64,000 nucleotides of DNA from contig JACQEZ010000007.1 of NCBI GenBank assembly GCA_016200325.1, positions 62,001 through 126,000 on the forward strand, written 5' to 3'. This DNA is from Candidatus Manganitrophaceae bacterium (GTDB lineage Bacteria > Nitrospirota > Nitrospiria > SBBL01 > Manganitrophaceae). Positions within the stretch are counted from its first letter, which is position 1, and each line of letters opens with the position of its first letter. Position numbers and translations under genes: made by a program. This document shows positions 18,455 through 55,254 of this stretch, in pieces. The notes beneath the pieces are model-generated. The model saw nothing but the letters and a program-made list of their open reading frames with translations. It was not told the origin of the DNA and searched no databases.

Positions 18455-19990
18455 ATGGCTTTAACAGTTAATACCAACATGTTTTCGATTATTGCGCAGG
18501 GTAACCTATCCAAAACGCAGAATCCGTTGATGTCTGCGATGCAGCGTCTCTCTTCAGGTCTTCGAATCAACTCCTCGAGGGACGACGCAGCCGGTTTGGC
18601 CATCGCCACCCGGATGACCCGGTCGATCAACGGTCTTACGGTTGCCGCTAGAAACGCGAACGACGGGGTCTCTTTCGCCCAGACGGCGGAAGGTTCCATG
18701 GGGGAAATGCTCAACAATCTCCAGAGAATTTATGAACTGGCGAACCAGTCTGCGAGCTACAACACCTCGACAGACCGGAGTTCGATGAACCAGGAGGTCA
18801 CCCAGCTTGTTTCCGAATTGAACAGGGTGGTCAGCCAGACTCGGTTCAATGGAGAGACCTTCCTGAACCAAGCGTTCAGCGGCGCCTTTCAGGTCGGGAT
18901 CGAGGTCAATGAGACGATCTCGATTGCAACGACCAACGTGTCGCCGGATACCTTGGGTGTCCAGTCTACGAGGACCGATTTTACGGACATCAGCACCAAC
19001 AGAACGGCGATTGCAAGTTCGATTGCGGGATCGTCATTGCGGGCGACCGGCGGTTTGGCGGCCAGCGCTACATTGGCTGGGGTTGATCTCGGCGCCGTCA
19101 TTCTCCAGAGCGATATGATCAATCGGAGCCAAGCTGTGATCAACCGGGTCAACCAATATACCGGGTCAACCAATATCACCGCCTTCTCCTTCGGGAATGC
19201 GTTTGTCGGGACGGCAGCCACCGGAAACGGAAGCGCCGGGGATGTAAATTCTGGTTACCTGACGATCAACGGGATTGCGATTGGCTCTACTTCTCTTGGA
19301 GCTCTTTCGAGCGGTTCAATCGTGGCGGCGGCCTTGGCATCGGCAATTAATGCCAAGACGGCGTCGACAGGAGTCTACGCGATTGTCCTTGGCAGCGCCG
19401 ACATCGGCTCTGCGAATACCGCCAGCATCGCACTGGTCAACGCGACGGGCGCGGCTATTACGGTGGCTGTTGCGACGGCGAATGCCGGCGCGGCAAGCGC
19501 TGTGGTGAGTTACTTTGGCGCGACCGGAGGGAGCGTTTCCGCGGGGCAAAATGGACAGATCGTCTTGAGCGCTCCACTCGGGACCACCAGCGCCTCAACC
19601 AACGCGGCGATCGACAGCCTGGCACTTGGTTTCAGCTCTTCAGCTGCATCGGTTTCAATCAGCGGCAGCGCGTCGGTCAACTCGGTGTCGGTCAACACGG
19701 TCGGCAACGCCAACCTGGCAATCTTGGCGGTGAAGCAAGGTCTGGACACCCTCAACGCCGAACGGGCCAAACTCGGCGCGGTCATGAACCGGCTTCAATC
19801 GACGATCGCCAACATCACGAATAGCAATGAAAACACCACCGCGGCGAGATCCCGAATCATGGACACCGATTTCGCGATGGAAACCGCGAACCTGACGAAA
19901 GCGATGATCACCCAGCAGGCGGGTATTTCGATCCTCGCTCAGGCGAACACATTGCCTCAACAGGTGTTGGCGCTATTGCAAGGAAGATAA
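18455..19990 (+). CDS. fliC: flagellin
   Basis: A 511-residue flagellin. The conserved N-terminal D0/D1 region (VNTNMFSIIAQGNLSK, RLSSGLRINSSRDDAAGLAIATRM, NDGVSFAQTAEGSMGEM) and C-terminal region (ILAVKQGLDTLNAERAKLGAVMNRL, ARSRIMDTDFAMETANLTKAMI, ILAQANTLPQQVLALLQG) flank a variable centre, about residues 170-410. The centre is very rich in Ala, Ser, Thr and Gly, giving many possible O-glycosylation positions. AAGGAGG lies 7 bases before the ATG. It has its own sigma-28 promoter and is followed by a strong terminator. The adjacent nonulosonate cluster suggests a glycosylated filament. Confidence 0.95.
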   Translation: MALTVNTNMFSIIAQGNLSKTQNPLMSAMQRLSSGLRINSSRDDAAGLAIATRMTRSINGLTVAARNANDGVSFAQTAEGSMGEMLNNLQRIYELANQSASYNTSTDRSSMNQEVTQLVSELNRVVSQTRFNGETFLNQAFSGAFQVGIEVNETISIATTNVSPDTLGVQSTRTDFTDISTNRTAIASSIAGSSLRATGGLAASATLAGVDLGAVILQSDMINRSQAVINRVNQYTGSTNITAFSFGNAFVGTAATGNGSAGDVNSGYLTINGIAIGSTSLGALSSGSIVAAALASAINAKTASTGVYAIVLGSADIGSANTASIALVNATGAAITVAVATANAGAASAVVSYFGATGGSVSAGQNGQIVLSAPLGTTSASTNAAIDSLALGFSSSAASVSISGSASVNSVSVNTVGNANLAILAVKQGLDTLNAERAKLGAVMNRLQSTIANITNSNENTTAARSRIMDTDFAMETANLTKAMITQQAGISILAQANTLPQQVLALLQGR

Positions 19991-47284: not shown

Positions 47285-47521
47285 CCTTGACACCCGATCG
47301 TTTCAGGTTCTGGATCGATACCACTTTCCCTTTTTCGATTTTTGTCAAAAAGAGCGGGTGCAGACCTTGATGGTCGGCGGGCTGAACGAGATCTCCAGCC
47401 CTCCGGCATCCATCTTCAGCTTCTCCCGCCCAGGAGGGGACCGACAAGAGCAATAGAATGAGGGGAGGGATAAAAAAAATGCGGATGGATTTCAAGTCAG
47501 AGGTTTCTGAAGTGTCATCAT
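47285..47521 (-). pseudogene. remnant of a LivJ-type substrate-binding protein
   Basis: The minus strand encodes the two ends of a binding protein with the middle gone. A start ATG and Q-K codons match the beginning of the 50621-51790 gene but a one-base loss shifts the frame. A signal peptide (LILLLLSVPSWA) then runs straight into KLKMDAGGLEISFS, which in intact copies lies about 35 residues from the end. Another one-base loss follows, then DHQGL and FLTKIEKGKV of the C-terminus. Roughly 320 codons are missing and the original stop is lost. Confidence 0.85.
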
Positions 47522-47600: not shown

Positions 47601-49100
47601 TCATCGATTGGCTTCAAATCGGAAGTTGTTCACCATCATCGTCAGATCGGCTCCCATCTCGGCGAGCTTCTTCGAGGCGATCAGGATCTCCGCCGCTGTT
47701 TTCGCCGTGCTCTTGGAGGCATCGGCGACCCCCGTGATGCTCTGATTCACCTCATTGGTTCCTTGGGCCGCCTGTGCGACCCTGCCGCTGATTTGGTTCG
47801 TCGTTGCCGTCTGTTCCTCGACGGCCCCCGAAATGTCAATAGAGATCTGATTAATCTGATCGATGATCTCTCCGATCTTTCCAATTTCAGAGATCGCCTC
47901 CTTGGTCTCCGCCTGGATGGCGGTTATTTTGGGGGTGATCTCCTCGGTGGCTTTGGCCGTCCTTTTGGCGAGATCTTTCACCTCGTTTGCCACGACGGCG
48001 AATCCCTTTCCGGCTTCCCCGGCACGCGCCGCCTCGATGGTCGCATTCAGGGCCAAGAGATTCGTCTGCTTGGCAATGGCGGTGATCACCTTGACCACCT
48101 CCCCGATCTCAATGCTCGATTCCCCCAGCTTGGAAATGGTTTTGTTGGTCGACTCGGCCATTCTCACCGCCTGGGTGGTGATCTGCGTTGCGTTTACAAT
48201 GTTTCGGGAGATGTCTTTCAGGGTGGCCGATATCTCCACGCTGGCCGTCGCAACCTCTCCGACCGTCCGGTTGATTTCCTGACTGGTCGAGGAGACCCGG
48301 CTCGCCAGAAGCTCCGTTTCCGAGGAATTAGAGCTCATCTGCTCGCTCGCGGTCGAGAGCTCCTTGGAGGAGAGGGTGATCTGCTTGCAGCTGTCGCGGA
48401 CGGCATAAACCAGCTCTTGCATCACCCTTTTTAAGCTGGCAGACATTTCTGAGAAAGCCCGAGCAAGAATGCCGATTTCGTCCTGCGCACCAAGGAGTTT
48501 CGATTCAACCTCGACCGTCATGTCTCCCTGAGCGACCTTTTGAATCACCCCGACCAGATGTGCGAGGGGCTGGGTGATCCCCCGGAAGAGAATGGTGACC
48601 CCGAGAATGAGCAAGATCAATGCGACGAGATTGCTGATCACAACCGTCTGGATGCCGCTGCGCAGATTTTTGGAAAGGGCCTCCTGGCTGTAGCCGATCT
48701 GAAGGTACCCGACCGGCTTTCCATCCCCTCTGAGACTTTGAATCTCCCGGTTATAAATCGACAGCGAAGTGGTATCGCTCGGCGGCTTGCTGGTTTCTGT
48801 GAGTGGTTTTTTCTCTATATCATAAAAAACAACAAAAACCACATCGGGATCTTTTAATGCGACTTTAACAAAGGTTTCCAAAGCTTGAAGATCAAAATTC
48901 ATCACGTAACTGGCGCTGATCTGGGAGAAGGTATCGGCCAGAGCGTTTCCTTTGGATTCCATGAGGGATCGGATGGTGGTATGGTTCTGATTGATCATGA
49001 TGGTTCCCAGTCCGCCGAGCAGAATCACCATGAAGATCAGATTCGGGATCAAGAATTTCTTGCTAATGGAGTTCAACATCAAAGGATTCGGAAGCGCCAT
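47601..49100 (-). CDS. methyl-accepting chemotaxis protein
   Basis: A 499-residue chemoreceptor. TM1 is about residues 16-36 and TM2 about 150-172, enclosing a ~113-residue extracytoplasmic sensor of Cache-like size. HAMP follows (residues ~173-226; [17 protein letters not shown]), then a long signalling coiled coil with the conserved tip [37 protein letters not shown]. No CheR-binding pentapeptide at the C-terminus. Its first ~190 residues are nearly the same as the adjacent histidine kinase. Eight bases separate the two genes, so they are co-transcribed. Confidence 0.92.
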
Positions 49101-49107
49101 CTTTCCC

Positions 49108-50601
49108 TTACCTCTTCATTATTTGAGATTTAGGACCTTCACTGCTTTGTCCTTTTAGACCCTTGTCAGAAAAACGGGCTTCGAGCCTGGGGGAGCGTGA
49201 CTGACCGGCCGGTTGAAGTTTGTTATTCTGAGGGAGCCAAATATAGAACGTCGCCACCTTCCCTTTCTCTGATTCCACCCAGATCTTTCCATCATTCAGA
49301 TCGACGATCTTCTTTACGATCGGAAGTCCCACGCCGGTCCCCTCGACATTGACATCTTGCAAACGTTGGAAGATGGCGAAGATCTTATCGTGATAGGCCG
49401 GATCGATTCCGATCCCGTTGTCTTTCACATAGAACTCGACCCCTCTCTCCGACTCTTTCCCGCCGATCTCAATTTGAGGATGGGATTGATCTCCCATGAA
49501 TTTGGTGGCATTGGAGATCAGGTTCTGGAAAATTTGAGCCAGCTGGATCGGGTTGAACATGAAGTGGGGGAGGGGAGCGTGAACGGAGACCGCGATGTTG
49601 CGCTTTGTGAGTTGATTTTGAAGAATTTCCAAAACATTCTGAATCACCTCTTTTACCTCGATCAGTTCCCGGCGTTCCTGCATTCTTCCAATACGTGAGA
49701 GGGCCAAGAGCCCTTGAATCAGCTCTTCCATATAGTTTGCGTTTCCGATGATTCGGTCGAGGTAATGCCTTGCGGTTTCATCCAACTGTTCGAAATACTG
49801 GTCCTTCATCATGGAGGCCATCCCATTCATCGAGACCACGGGAGACTTGAGGTCGTGCGAGACGGTATAGATAAATGCTTCCAGCTCCGCCGTGCGCGCC
49901 TTCACCTGTTCCTCCAGATGTTCGTGGGACCGAGCGAGTTCCTCGCTCATTCGGTTGAAGCTGACGGCCAAAACCCCCATCTCGTCGCGGCGGTCGACCA
50001 GACGGGATGAGACGCGGGCCGTCAAGTCCCCTTGGGCGACCTTTTCGATCACGCCGACGAGATGGGCCAGTGGATTCGTGATCCCCCGAAAGAGAATGGT
50101 CACCCCCAGAATAAGCAAGATCAACGCCACGAGATTACTGATCACGACTGTCTCAATGCCGCTGTGCAGGTTTTTGGCGAGGGTTTCCTGGCTATAGCCA
50201 ATCTGGAGGTATCCGACCGGTGTTTGATCCTCTCTGAGACTTAGGATCTCCCGGTTATAAATCAACAGCGTAGAGAGATCACTGGGAGGCTTGCTGCTCT
50301 CCGTGAGTGGCTTTCTCTCGGCGTCATAGAAAACAACAAAAACCACATCGGGATCTCTCAAGGCTTCATTGACAAACAATTCCAACGCCTGGAGGTCGAA
50401 ATTCATCACGTAATTGGCGCTGATCCGGGCGAGGTTATTCGCCAAGGCGTTCCCTTTGGATTCCATCAAATATTGAATGGTGGCATGATTTTTATTGATC
50501 ATGATCGTGCCCAATCCACCCAGCAGAATCACCATGAAAATGATGGCCGGGATCAAGAACTTCTTGCTGATCGAGTTCAACGTCAAAAGCCTTTGAGGCA
50601 C
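49108..50601 (-). CDS. sensor histidine kinase sharing its sensor half with the chemoreceptor
   Basis: A 497-residue kinase. TM1 (about 16-36), extracytoplasmic region, TM2 (about 152-172) and HAMP are near-copies of the neighbouring chemoreceptor. The output half is a HisKA with His249 in [14 protein letters not shown] and an HATPase ([47 protein letters not shown]), of the group found in phytochrome-like kinases. No response regulator gene is adjacent. It starts 19 bases after the stop of the binding protein 50621-51790. Confidence 0.9.
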
Positions 50602-50620
50602 GATCTTCCTTAAACGGTTT

Positions 50621-51790
50621 TTATTTCAGGGTCTGAATCGTAATCACCTTGCCGTTTTCGATCTTGGTCAAAAAGACCTGGTGTAAGCCTTGATGGTCGG
50701 TGGGGCTGAAGGAGACCTTCAGGCCTCCCGCATCGATACTGAGATTCTCCAGCGTCGAGAGAAGATTGTCCCGGGTCAGCGGAGAAGTTTTCTTGAGCGC
50801 TTCCACCAACACCTTGGCATCAAGATACCCCTCTAAGCTGATCAGGTCAGGGACGAGCCCTGCAGCCTTCATCTCCGAGACAAACCCCTTTACGATCGGC
50901 AAGGGGCTATCAGCGGGATTCGGCACAACCTGGGTTGCGATCAACCCGTCGGCCTCTTTTCCCGCCTCGGCGATGAGGGACGTTGTGCCGACCCCCAGGT
51001 GTAAAAATTGGGGGAGGAATCGACGCGCCTTTGCCTTTTTGAGAAAGGCGGCGGAGGGGGTGTAAGGGGCAATCATAATCACCGCCTCGGGATTCGCCTT
51101 CATCAACGTCTCCACGGCCTCGTCGACATCAACCGTATTCCGCTCAAAGGTCCCATCTCCGGCCAAGGTCATATTCCGCTTACGCAAGGCCCGCAACACG
51201 CCGGAGCGACCCGCTTCCCCCAAAGCGTCATTCTGGGCAAAGACGCCGATTCTTTTGATCCGAAGGTCCTCGGTCAAGCGTTCCACCATGACTTCAATCT
51301 CTTCAGCGTAACTGGCACGGAGGGTGAAGGCATATCGATTGACCGGATGACGAAGGAACCGGGCCCCGGTGAGTGGAAAGAGATAGGGGACGCTGGCCCT
51401 TTGAAAGATCGGTACGATCGCCGCGGAGATCGGCGAGCCGATATATCCGAATAAAGCAAATACCTTTTCCTCCTCGATGAACTTCCGGGTATTCTCGATT
51501 GCTTTGGCGGGTTGATAGACGTCATCGTAAATGAGCAGCTTGATCTTGCGGCCGCCGATCCCTCCGGCGGCATTGACCTTGTTGAAGTAGATTGTTGCCC
51601 CTTCCTTTATCAGAATGCTGACAGCGGAGGTGGGGCCGCTCTGGCCGTTCGACATACCGATGAGGATCTCTTTGTCGGTGATCCCGTCTTCGGCCCAGGA
51701 AAGAGCGGCCGATAAAAGCGTTAGAAGAATGACGAAGATCAATAAATATTTGCCTGTCGTTTTCAATGTCGAACGTTTCTGAAACGCCAT
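50621..51790 (-). CDS. LivJ-type periplasmic substrate-binding protein
   Basis: A 389-residue type I periplasmic binding protein. The N-terminal signal (YLLIFVILLTLLSAALSWA) is followed by EILIGMSNGQSGPTSAVSILIKEGA, FNKVNAAGGIGGRKIKLLIYDDVYQPAKAIEN and FALFGYIGSPISAAIVPIF. These are the branched-chain amino acid/amide binding-protein signatures. No permease or ATPase is found near it; instead it lies directly upstream of the histidine kinase on the same strand, so a receptor-accessory role is likely. Ligand unknown. Confidence 0.88.
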   Translation of the reverse strand: MAFQKRSTLKTTGKYLLIFVILLTLLSAALSWAEDGITDKEILIGMSNGQSGPTSAVSILIKEGATIYFNKVNAAGGIGGRKIKLLIYDDVYQPAKAIENTRKFIEEEKVFALFGYIGSPISAAIVPIFQRASVPYLFPLTGARFLRHPVNRYAFTLRASYAEEIEVMVERLTEDLRIKRIGVFAQNDALGEAGRSGVLRALRKRNMTLAGDGTFERNTVDVDEAVETLMKANPEAVIMIAPYTPSAAFLKKAKARRFLPQFLHLGVGTTSLIAEAGKEADGLIATQVVPNPADSPLPIVKGFVSEMKAAGLVPDLISLEGYLDAKVLVEALKKTSPLTRDNLLSTLENLSIDAGGLKVSFSPTDHQGLHQVFLTKIENGKVITIQTLK

Positions 51791-51809
51791 CGTTCCAACT
51801 GTTTTTTCA

Positions 51810-52952
51810 TTATTTGAGGTTTTGAATCGACATTACTTTTCCTTTTTCGATCTTCGTCAAAAAGACCTGGTGCAGGCCTTGATGGTCGGTGGGACTGAAC
51901 GAAACCTCCAGGCCGCCCGCGTCCATCTTTAGCTTGTTCAATGTGGAAACAAAGGCCTCCCGGGTCAACGGAGCGGTTCTCTTGAGCGCTTCGACCAGCA
52001 CCATGGCGCCGACGTAGCTCTCTAAGCCGACCGGGTCGGGGGTAATTCCGGCCGCCTTCATGTCTGAAAGAAATTCTTTGACGATCGGCAACGAGCTGTC
52101 GCTTGGATTCGGCACAATCTGGGTTACAATCAGCCCATCGGCGTCTTTTCCCGCCTCGCGCATCAGGGCGGCGGTGCCCGACGAAATGACAAGGAATTTG
52201 GGGTTGAACCCACGCGCCCTCGCCTTTTTGAGAAAGGCGGCACAAGGGACATAGGTACACGCCATCACGACCGCGTCGGGTTTGGCTTTGGCCAATGTTT
52301 CCAAGGCCTCATCGACATAGGTGGTATTCCGCTCATATTTCCCGTCCCCGACCAGGCTCATATTTCGTTTCCGCAATGCCCGGATCGCTCCGGCACGGCC
52401 CGCTTCCCCCATGGCATCATCTTGGGCAAAGACGCCGATTTTTTGGATGTGAAGGTCTTCGGTCAACCGCTCGACCATCACTTCGACCTCATCGGCATAA
52501 CTGGCCCGGACGTTAAAGATATATTTATTGATCGGGTTGCGAATGACCTCCGCTCCCGTCAATGGGAAGAGATAGGGGATACCGGTTCGGGTGACGATCG
52601 GCACCACCGCTGCAGAGTTCGGCGAGCCGATATATCCAAACAAGGCGAACACCTTATCCTCTTCGATCAATTTCCGCGTGTTCGAAATCGTAACGGCGGG
52701 CTGGTAGACGTCGTCATAAATCACCAGTCTGATCTTACGGCCTCCAATCCCTCCGGCGGCGTTCACCTTGTTAAAGTATGTGGCTGCGCCGTCTCTCATC
52801 ATAAAACCCAATGCGGAAACGGGTCCGCTCTGCGCGTTGGTCATCCCGATGAGAATCTCTTTCTCGGTGACGCCATCCTCTGCCGAAGAAAAAGAGACCG
52901 ATAAAAGCAATAGCAATATACTGAGGACGCATTTTCTTTTGCACTTCATCAT
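51810..52952 (-). CDS. LivJ-type periplasmic substrate-binding protein, paralogue
   Basis: A 380-residue paralogue of the next gene downstream, similar along its whole length (EILIGMTNAQSGPVSALGFM, DDVYQPAVTISNTRKLIEEDK, HQGLHQVFLTKIEKGKV). Signal peptide CVLSILLLLLSVSFSSA precedes EDGVTEK. The start at 52952 (tandem ATGs) has GGAGA upstream; an earlier in-frame ATG at 52985 lacks one and would lengthen the signal by 11 residues. Ligand-pocket differences, such as VTRTGIPYLFPLTGAEVIRN against FQRASVPYLFPLTGARFLRH, suggest a different ligand. Confidence 0.88.
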   Translation of the reverse strand: MMKCKRKCVLSILLLLLSVSFSSAEDGVTEKEILIGMTNAQSGPVSALGFMMRDGAATYFNKVNAAGGIGGRKIRLVIYDDVYQPAVTISNTRKLIEEDKVFALFGYIGSPNSAAVVPIVTRTGIPYLFPLTGAEVIRNPINKYIFNVRASYADEVEVMVERLTEDLHIQKIGVFAQDDAMGEAGRAGAIRALRKRNMSLVGDGKYERNTTYVDEALETLAKAKPDAVVMACTYVPCAAFLKKARARGFNPKFLVISSGTAALMREAGKDADGLIVTQIVPNPSDSSLPIVKEFLSDMKAAGITPDPVGLESYVGAMVLVEALKRTAPLTREAFVSTLNKLKMDAGGLEVSFSPTDHQGLHQVFLTKIEKGKVMSIQNLK

Positions 52953-53387: not shown

Positions 53388-54644
53388 TTACATCTCTCCA
53401 CAGTGGTACAGATGACTCCTTTTCGGGAAAAACCAACCCGACTTTTCATGGAGGAGGAGGTAAACGGAGTTGTCCGGCACATACGAACAGATCGTGCCGA
53501 GGACGGCCTTGAACACTCTTTTTTCCGGATAGGGGTTGGCGTTGAATTCATGCATGGTCCATGCGTTCAAATTAAGGAGCGCTTCGCCCTCCCGCTCGGT
53601 CACAAATCGAGAAAGCGCTGCGGGCAGCTTGCGTGCCGCCTCGGGCTGCATCCGTATTTGGGCATAGTCGACATTCCCCGTATACACGTTGAAGGAGAGG
53701 GCCGAATCCCAGCGATTTACATTGTTGAAAAGCGGCAGGATTCCGATAAAGAGAAGCGCACCCGCCTGCGGGAGGTTATAGAGAGGGGGCGCATCGAACA
53801 TTTTTTTAAATGAGAACGGAGGTGCTTTGTAAAAAAGAACCCAGACGAGTACCGCCATCGTCTGGCCCCAGATCCAGGCGCTGTCATTCCAGTCATTTCG
53901 GATCGGTCCGATGCAAAAGAAGATCAGCACATGCATCAAGATCGCATCGTAAAGCGCAATGACGCGAAATCGCTTCGTCAGCAGTCCGATTCCGAACAAT
54001 ACTTCGAAGACTGCGGCAAAAACACCGAGGGCCGGCAAATAGGGAATATCGAATGGAAGAAGGTGGGTCAGCGGTTGGACGAACCAGGGGAATTCCTCGT
54101 TAAAAAAATGCGGGTTCAGCTTCTGGACGCCGCCCCAGAAATAAATGGCAGCGATGATGAACCGGAATCCGTCGAGGATGCGACGTGCCTCGTCTTCTCC
54201 CGCGTCGTTTCTATCAGTCAGCAGAAGGAGAAAAAGGAAAAAGAATTCATAAAACGACGGCCAAAGGCGGCTCTGGTCCTGTAGAAAGAAAAGGGTGAAA
54301 GCCGCAACGATCAATCGAACCAATATTTTCGACCGAGGCCAAATGACCAGGGCGAGAAGAAGTGCGGAGAAGAGTGCGAGAAAAAGATAGTCGAACGGAT
54401 ACGGAAAGGCCGGAATGAGCTTAAAGAGAGGAACCAGGGGATAGAGCCGGGTGGAAACCCAGAGTTTCCAGGAGAAACCGAGGCAGAGTAAAACGAACAC
54501 CGCCAGAAGACGGATCGAAACGGTCAGCCGTTTTTGTTCGCTTGTGAAGATCGACCCGGGGCGCTCCGGCGCCGATCTTTCCCCCCCGCGCGGAGACGAC
54601 CGAAGTCCCTTCAGAACAAGGCCCGGTTTGCGCCTTGCTTTCAT
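53388..54644 (-). CDS. HTTM-like integral membrane protein
   Basis: About 418 residues from the ATG at 54644, with roughly eight hydrophobic helices, resembling HTTM/VKGC-related and DoxX-like membrane proteins (FRFIIAAIYFWGGVQKLNPHFFNEEFPWF, AVFEVLFGIGLLTKRFRVIALY, MHVLIFFCIGPIRNDWNDSAW). The lysine in GGVQKLNPHF and the histidine of ILMHVLIFF sit where such proteins keep polar residues. A farther upstream start would overlap the XRE-cupin gene and is not favoured. Role unknown. Confidence 0.6.
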   Translation of the reverse strand: MKARRKPGLVLKGLRSSPRGGERSAPERPGSIFTSEQKRLTVSIRLLAVFVLLCLGFSWKLWVSTRLYPLVPLFKLIPAFPYPFDYLFLALFSALLLALVIWPRSKILVRLIVAAFTLFFLQDQSRLWPSFYEFFFLFLLLLTDRNDAGEDEARRILDGFRFIIAAIYFWGGVQKLNPHFFNEEFPWFVQPLTHLLPFDIPYLPALGVFAAVFEVLFGIGLLTKRFRVIALYDAILMHVLIFFCIGPIRNDWNDSAWIWGQTMAVLVWVLFYKAPPFSFKKMFDAPPLYNLPQAGALLFIGILPLFNNVNRWDSALSFNVYTGNVDYAQIRMQPEAARKLPAALSRFVTEREGEALLNLNAWTMHEFNANPYPEKRVFKAVLGTICSYVPDNSVYLLLHEKSGWFFPKRSHLYHCGEM

Positions 54645-54681
54645 CCTCTGCGATCTCCTCTCTATGATATTGCTGAAAGAA

Positions 54682-55254
54682 TCAAACACCGACCGGGGCA
54701 AGGACCACGACGCTGAACCCGACCGCCTTCTCTCTGCCGGTATTCTGGTAAGAGTGGGCTTGGTCTCCGGGAAACGCCAGAACATCGCCGGATCGCACGC
54801 AAAAGGCCTCCCCGGCGACATGAACCGTGATTTCGCTTTGAACCACCGTTAGATACTCCTTCGTCCCTCCGACGTGCGGCACCCCGCCGATTCTTCCTCC
54901 GAGCGCGATCTCCATCCGGTCCATTTCCATTCCGGGAATGGCGTCGGGAAGAAGTTTGTAAATTGCAGAGACCCCTTGCCGGCTCCGCCGCGCAGGCATT
55001 TCGTCCGCCCGAATCAGCTTGCAGTTCGCCCGAGGAGCCGCCAGGAGCTCTTCGACCGAAACCCGCAGCGCCGCCGCAATCCGGACGAGATTGATGAGCG
55101 AAGGATTCCCGGCTCCCGATTCCAAATGGGTGACCGTGGAGCGGGGAACGTCTGCCAAGCGGGCGAGCGCCGCCTGGGTCAAGCCTCTCTTGCCCCGTAA
55201 TGTGACGATGCTGAGGGCAAGATTCTTTGAAACCTGATTCAATCCATTGGCCAT
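54682..55254 (-). CDS. XRE-family regulator with C-terminal cupin domain
   Basis: A 190-residue regulator: helix-turn-helix at about residues 10-65 (LTLRGKRGLTQAALARLADVPRSTVTHLESG) and a small cupin barrel at about 105-185 (GTKEYLTVVQSEITVHVAG, SGDVLAFPGDQAHSYQN). The cupin usually binds a small effector. It is divergent to the SDR/QueA-like pair with only 77 bases between starts, so it probably controls both directions. Confidence 0.88.
   Translation of the reverse strand: MANGLNQVSKNLALSIVTLRGKRGLTQAALARLADVPRSTVTHLESGAGNPSLINLVRIAAALRVSVEELLAAPRANCKLIRADEMPARRSRQGVSAIYKLLPDAIPGMEMDRMEIALGGRIGGVPHVGGTKEYLTVVQSEITVHVAGEAFCVRSGDVLAFPGDQAHSYQNTGREKAVGFSVVVLAPVGV

Follow-up and report, generated by a model that had tools for sequence, protein, structure and literature searches.

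Within a 64,000-nucleotide stretch of contig JACQEZ010000007.1 from a Candidatus Manganitrophaceae bacterium (assembly GCA_016200325.1, positions 62,001 to 126,000 of the forward strand; hereafter the window), four genes lie head to tail on the minus strand and form a compact, putatively sensory array. The genome (G000; 4.2 Mb in 20 contigs, 99% complete) is congeneric with Candidatus Manganitrophus sp. GAC4 of the Nitrospirota. The first gene encodes SBP1, an exported solute-binding protein (SBP) of the Peripla_BP_6 family with a visible signal peptide (51810–52952; Pfam 4e-70). Its open reading frame extends to 52985, and comparison with congeners makes the ATG at 52952 the probable start. 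SBP2, a second exported Peripla_BP_6 protein (50621–51790; Pfam 2e-60, BLASTP and pocket alignment), is followed by a histidine kinase (HK; 49108–50601) with a GTG start, which is composed of a transmembrane segment (TM1), a PDC-like sensor, TM2 and, as assigned by Pfam, HAMP, HisKA and HATPase_c. The last gene encodes a chemoreceptor of the methyl-accepting chemotaxis protein type (MCP; 47601–49100), in which a TM1–sensor–TM2–HAMP half like that of HK is joined to an MCPsignal domain (Pfam 3.2e-35). A sequence-only reading of the window had placed two binding-protein genes directly upstream of a kinase and a chemoreceptor, with no transporter at the locus. Both points are borne out by the domain assignments, by intergenic gaps of 19, 19 and 7 bases, and by the absence of any permease in or near the array. 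The match scores are too strong for chance to play a part.

Downstream of the MCP gene, tblastn and blastn with SBP1 revealed a decayed third SBP on the same strand (47301–47495). It consists of a start-like and signal-peptide-like segment followed by a frameshifted C-terminal tail; 123 bases of it align with the 3' end of SBP1 at 83% nucleotide identity (E 1e-31). An intact paralogue, 76% identical to SBP1, is located on contig C19 (C19:446348; L029:8343–9509) with no adjoining receptor or permease; the cell may thus still hold three binding proteins.

SBP1 and SBP2 are 70% identical over 357 residues by BLASTP, and their predicted pocket segments differ, with TGAEVI, ACTYVPC and ISSGT in SBP1 versus TGARFL, IAPYTPS and LGVGT in SBP2. 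The AlphaFold2 (AF2) model of SBP1, computed from an alignment without three plasmid rows, adopts a standard type I binding-protein fold (pLDDT 92.5), with 4kv7 as its best match in the PDB. The sequence-only reading had called both proteins LivJ-type. This description holds for the Peripla_BP_6 fold, which they have in common with LivJ and LivK of the LivHMGF system, but not for the pocket. In an alignment against LivJ, Ser79 is kept, Thr102 is changed to Gly, and the acidic Glu226 is replaced by Ser in SBP1 and by Gly in SBP2. Moreover, the two proteins reach 71.5 and 55.1 bits with the NCBIfam LivJ-type model, against a cut-off of 477.

One outcome that the sequence-only reading had named as refuting it was that the SBPs serve a distant permease. 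In this case they would supply a LIV-type permease encoded away from the array, and their adjacency to receptors would be incidental. A genome-wide search found LIV-type permeases in two operons only, both on contig C11; one of the two adjoins urease genes, and urea is its probable import substrate. However, each operon carries its own SBP, only 22%–28% identical to the array SBPs, and at the positions of LivJ Glu226 and Thr102 the C11 LIV SBP keeps the amino-acid pocket residues (Asp and Thr) that the array SBPs do not have. Furthermore, the array SBPs fall inside a receptor-linked clade (see below), whereas transporter SBPs fall outside it. Taking these points together with the lack of permease and ATPase genes, of a LivJ pocket and of a LivJ-level NCBIfam score in the array, we rejected transport as its main function and regard service to a distant permease as very improbable. 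The array SBPs are very probably signalling proteins.

SBP relatives were gathered across the Nitrospirota by sequence alone, and their neighbouring genes were read afterwards. In the resulting tree of 42 SBPs, whose deepest joins lie on long branches and whose root is unsure, 37 proteins group together, with the LIV-operon SBPs outside. A receptor-type gene stands beside or close by 34 of these 37 members, a count that takes in L082, L083 and L090, with one gene between, and the Manganitrophus arrays, with other array genes between. The receptors comprise chemoreceptors (those of L079 and L084 within che operons), histidine kinases, GGDEF proteins and a PDC-sensor protein of 710–712 residues. 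Most members of the lineage bear the motifs GTPT, FTGA and VSF[VI]G. Relatives on alpha- and betaproteobacterial plasmids divide in a similar manner. All five with at least 37% identity are located beside an MCP gene (Terrarubrum, Phaeobacter, Ruegeria and Thioclava) or a hybrid kinase gene (Burkholderia), whereas none of the seven below 33% is beside a receptor, these being found in LIV operons (Rhodococcus, Leisingera, Paracoccus and Sulfitobacter) or among other genes. This split, from which an unannotated Cupriavidus relative was left out, gives a Fisher P of 0.0013 on a small count without phylogenetic correction. These loci point to a lineage that can be recognised from sequence and in which membership predicts receptor partners rather than importers.

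Two arrangements found in this survey are worth describing in their own right. On the Terrarubrum flagellatum plasmid (L180:4926–8272), an SBP1 relative lies directly upstream of an MCP with the Pfam TorS_sensor_domain, a pair that may represent a TorT–TorS-like input on a chemoreceptor. At two further loci, tandem unrelated SBPs precede a single receptor, Peripla_BP_6 being followed by Phosphonate-bd or by NMT1 (L082:8228–12083 and L090:8593–13836).

The receptor halves of HK and MCP, which the sequence-only reading had taken as almost identical, are clearly recent paralogues but diverge more than that wording implies. The TM1–sensor–TM2–HAMP halves are 75% identical (168 of 224 residues, ungapped), rising to about 79% over TM1–TM2, and beyond some 224 residues the two proteins no longer align. 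The periplasmic sensor has no counterpart among Pfam models. We modelled HK residues 1–197 with 28 relatives via AF2 (pLDDT 81, pTM 0.57). In this model, a long helix and a second helix lead into three strands with a short loop at residues 94–111, followed by a long helix that runs through TM2. Its PDB matches include CitA, DcuS and the LapD orthologue CdgS9, and the GacS detector domain (5o7j) is a weak match to the sensor sequence profile (E 0.0018). Accordingly, the sensor is predicted to be a minimal PDC fold of the GacS/CitA/DcuS superfamily, in which a central antiparallel sheet of three strands lies between TM-linked helices. The periplasmic domain of LapD is an example in which the contacted partner is itself a protein, LapG. 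Apart from the sensor, MCP residue 390 (47931–47933), in a signalling-domain helix immediately beyond the hairpin tip, is encoded as Pro (CCC) in G000 and as Gln (CAA) in three congeners; this Pro could weaken the helix in the G000 strain or be harmless.

The sensor family itself recurs beside binding proteins. Among the closest sensor relatives from beyond the genus, three (G181, G169 and G166) are encoded 13–26 bases downstream of the SBP relatives that are likewise closest to the array. Among more distant MCPs of the family, those of L133, L135, L140, L142, L143 and L145 come immediately after Phosphonate-bd proteins, and that of L136 after a different Peripla_BP_6 protein. In L131, L132 and L138, an ABC_sub_bind protein, a multihaem MtrC/MtrF-like cytochrome and the MCP are encoded in this order; the cytochrome–MCP layout likewise occurs in L130, L134 and L139, the ABC_sub_bind protein having been tested in the former three. 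It is possible that chemotaxis is tied to extracellular electron transfer in this one Nitrospirota family. Exceptions are L141, where the MCP comes after a rhodanese protein, and L137 and L144, which have no binding protein. No sensor relatives were found in viral contigs or plasmids, and a sensor-alignment scan of genome contigs returned only three loci, all from Nitrospirota; the evidence on the sensor thus comes from one phylum.

Given that one sensor family goes with unrelated SBP families and one SBP lineage with unrelated sensors, a docking role fits better than a common small ligand. A different explanation is that the PDC sensor itself binds a small molecule, the SBPs being unrelated to signalling or mere scavengers or buffers. 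Its PDC relatives CitA and DcuS do bind ligands directly (PMC5595915), BarA is reported to bind acetate (PMC8639471), and gene adjacency can mislead (PMC11113362). However, the array sensor is a minimal fold with a loop of about 18 residues, as compared with 49 in GacS (PMC5595915), and no charged residue set is conserved across its 28 relatives. Together with the repeated association of the sensor with unrelated binding-protein families, these features make direct sensing quite unlikely.

Comparison with congeners revealed how the array varies within the genus. G002 (L040) and G004 (L041) have the fuller order SBP–SBP–HK–MCP–SBP, in which the third SBP is intact where G000 has the remnant. 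The reading frame of the first array SBP in G004 is broken (L041:10480–11878), which could reflect true decay or an assembly error. G003 has SBP–MCP only, and no SBP or sensor is encoded in G005 (98% complete, a single contig) or in G001 (72% complete). Thus, SBPs and sensors within the genus either co-occur or are both absent. The SufS-like flanking gene, looked for to locate the empty site, has no close orthologue in G005.

In G002, the HK and MCP sensors are identical over 77 consecutive polymorphic sites, third codon positions included (codons ~98–155; L040:6252–9268), a tract length reached in none of 2000 site permutations. The flanks of the tract keep paralogue-specific states common to G004. 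These data showed that gene conversion in G002 copied half of the sensor between HK and MCP. The converted tract spans the loop, two strands and a stretch into TM2, and codons 50–100 are paralogue-specific even in this genome. Recent conversion was tested in G000 and none was found; its HK and MCP genes differ by about 20% through the sensor, indicating that sensor conversion is episodic. The exchange of sensor sequence between the G002 receptors, combined with the occurrence of the sensor family behind unrelated SBP families, supports the sensor as a candidate dock for binding proteins.

The same data bear on a split pairing, in which SBP1 and SBP2 both signal but through one receptor each (e.g., SBP2 with the kinase), so that the common sensor would reflect recent duplication and not a common signal. 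The recent paralogy of the receptors, the paralogue-specific codons 50–100 of G002 despite conversion of the remaining sensor, and the single SBP and single MCP of G003 would all agree with such an arrangement. On the other hand, homogenisation in G002 took in the strands as well as the half of the sensor next to TM2, the three sensor strands of HK and MCP in G000 are 100%, 78% and 100% identical, and three SBPs cannot be matched one-to-one with the two receptors of G002. We consider split pairing unlikely.

We favour, as the probable reading, that the operon is a binding-protein-fed dual-output sensory unit, the SBPs of which dock on the PDC sensor common to HK and MCP. SBP1, SBP2 and probably the C19 paralogue would be exported as proteins dedicated to signalling. 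In the periplasm, each would take up a small molecule specific to it and close, and the closed form would then dock on the small PDC-like sensor of either receptor, shifting the sensor–TM2–HAMP relay. In HK, this shift would alter autophosphorylation and hence transcription via an unlinked response regulator; in MCP, it would alter CheA activity and hence swimming. We infer the physical docking and the use of the same sensor surface in both receptors, and likewise ligand identity, response direction and downstream targets. The sequence-only reading had proposed that one ligand signal is fed to both outputs, which is doubtful: the pocket segments of SBP1 and SBP2 differ, and the receptors may be served by as many as three SBPs. 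A convergence of several ligands on one sensor is at least as likely as a single ligand.

Several observations weigh against the dual-output unit. The differing pockets make a single common cue doubtful. G002 is the only genome in which conversion was found, and the event may be mechanistic and not a product of selection. In G026, an SBP of the lineage (L078) and a related sensor MCP (L044) lie on separate contigs, each without its expected partner alongside, although they are possibly a split pair. Three of the 37 clade members (L029, L078 and L085) have no nearby receptor, and the neighbour sampling carries no correction for relatedness. Among characterised systems, the kinases AgtS and AruS did not bind their neighbouring SBPs, showing that adjacency does not always equal a functional link (PMC11113362).

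The surroundings of the array were also inspected. No response regulator gene was seen among the flanking genes examined, and scans for promoters and terminators gave about as many matches as shuffled sequence. Upstream of the array, 53388–54821 on the minus strand encodes a predicted 477-residue membrane protein that matches nothing in Pfam or NCBIfam. A flagellin gene is located at about 18467–18874 on the plus strand (Flagellin_N E 2e-38), some 29 kb from the array, and a second one lies just beyond the window. For the genome as a whole, eight MCP genes, two che clusters and flagellins were found, which make the chemotaxis arm of the array plausible.

A broader idea, which we put forward tentatively and with doubt slightly outweighing belief, is that the small PDC sensor family might be a general dock for unrelated SBP families, that a widespread Peripla_BP_6 lineage might have left transport for receptors, and that conversion in Manganitrophus might keep both receptors compatible with two or three SBPs, yielding a many-input, two-output matrix. 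For most bacterial receptors, the signal is unknown, and one reason is that some signals are read via separate binding proteins, which escape screens done on sensor domains alone. With this operon, it can be tested directly whether a single SBP drives both a kinase and a chemoreceptor via a common sensor, and whether such twins are kept in step by gene conversion. If the dual-output reading is true, the same cues may steer gene expression and swimming. The host genus includes Mn(II)-oxidising chemolithoautotrophs, and from the ligand one could learn what attracts a swimming cell of this kind.

SBP-activated receptors are established, as in TorT–TorS, LuxP–LuxQ, XylFII–LytS, PstS–CtpL and AibA/AibB–TlpB (PMC6321045), and the genes are neighbours in 10 of the 11 characterised SBP–kinase couples (PMC11113362). 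Two features expected of such receptors are present in the array, namely an exported SBP gene adjoining a receptor gene and a periplasmic sensor between two TM segments with a signalling output. The array resembles TorT–TorS in having the SBP gene beside the receptor gene, and the TorT–TorS signal goes by protein contact (PMC6321045). However, that system consists of one binding protein and one kinase with no twin chemoreceptor. In addition, the TorS sensor is helical, unlike the PDC sensor of the array. In Halobacterium, the BasB–BasT and CosB–CosT systems likewise associate a binding protein with a chemotaxis transducer, as indicated by copurification (PMC3579733). These archaeal pairs differ in having no kinase twin and one binding protein per receptor. 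Work by Kokoeva in 2002 reportedly gave BasB and CosB a role in chemotaxis without transport.

The requirement for two SBPs has a parallel in Helicobacter chemotaxis to AI-2, where AibA and AibB are both needed with one sCache-type chemoreceptor, TlpB (PMC6321045), but no paired kinase has the same sensor. PstS serves both CtpL-mediated chemotaxis and the transcriptional Pho response in Pseudomonas (PMC6321045), akin to the dual output proposed for the array; PstS, however, also serves a transporter, and its two outputs use no duplicated sensor. The GacS detector domain (5o7j) has a three-strand PDC between helices, as in the array sensor, and no binding protein has been reported for it. We found no description of a kinase and a chemoreceptor sharing a sensor and binding proteins in the searchable literature, some subscription papers excepted, nor in that literature of a phylum-crossing, receptor-linked Peripla_BP_6 lineage or of the varied partners of the sensor family. 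The principle of an SBP-activated receptor is thus known, and what appears to be new here is a paired kinase and chemoreceptor that share one sensor with two or three SBPs.

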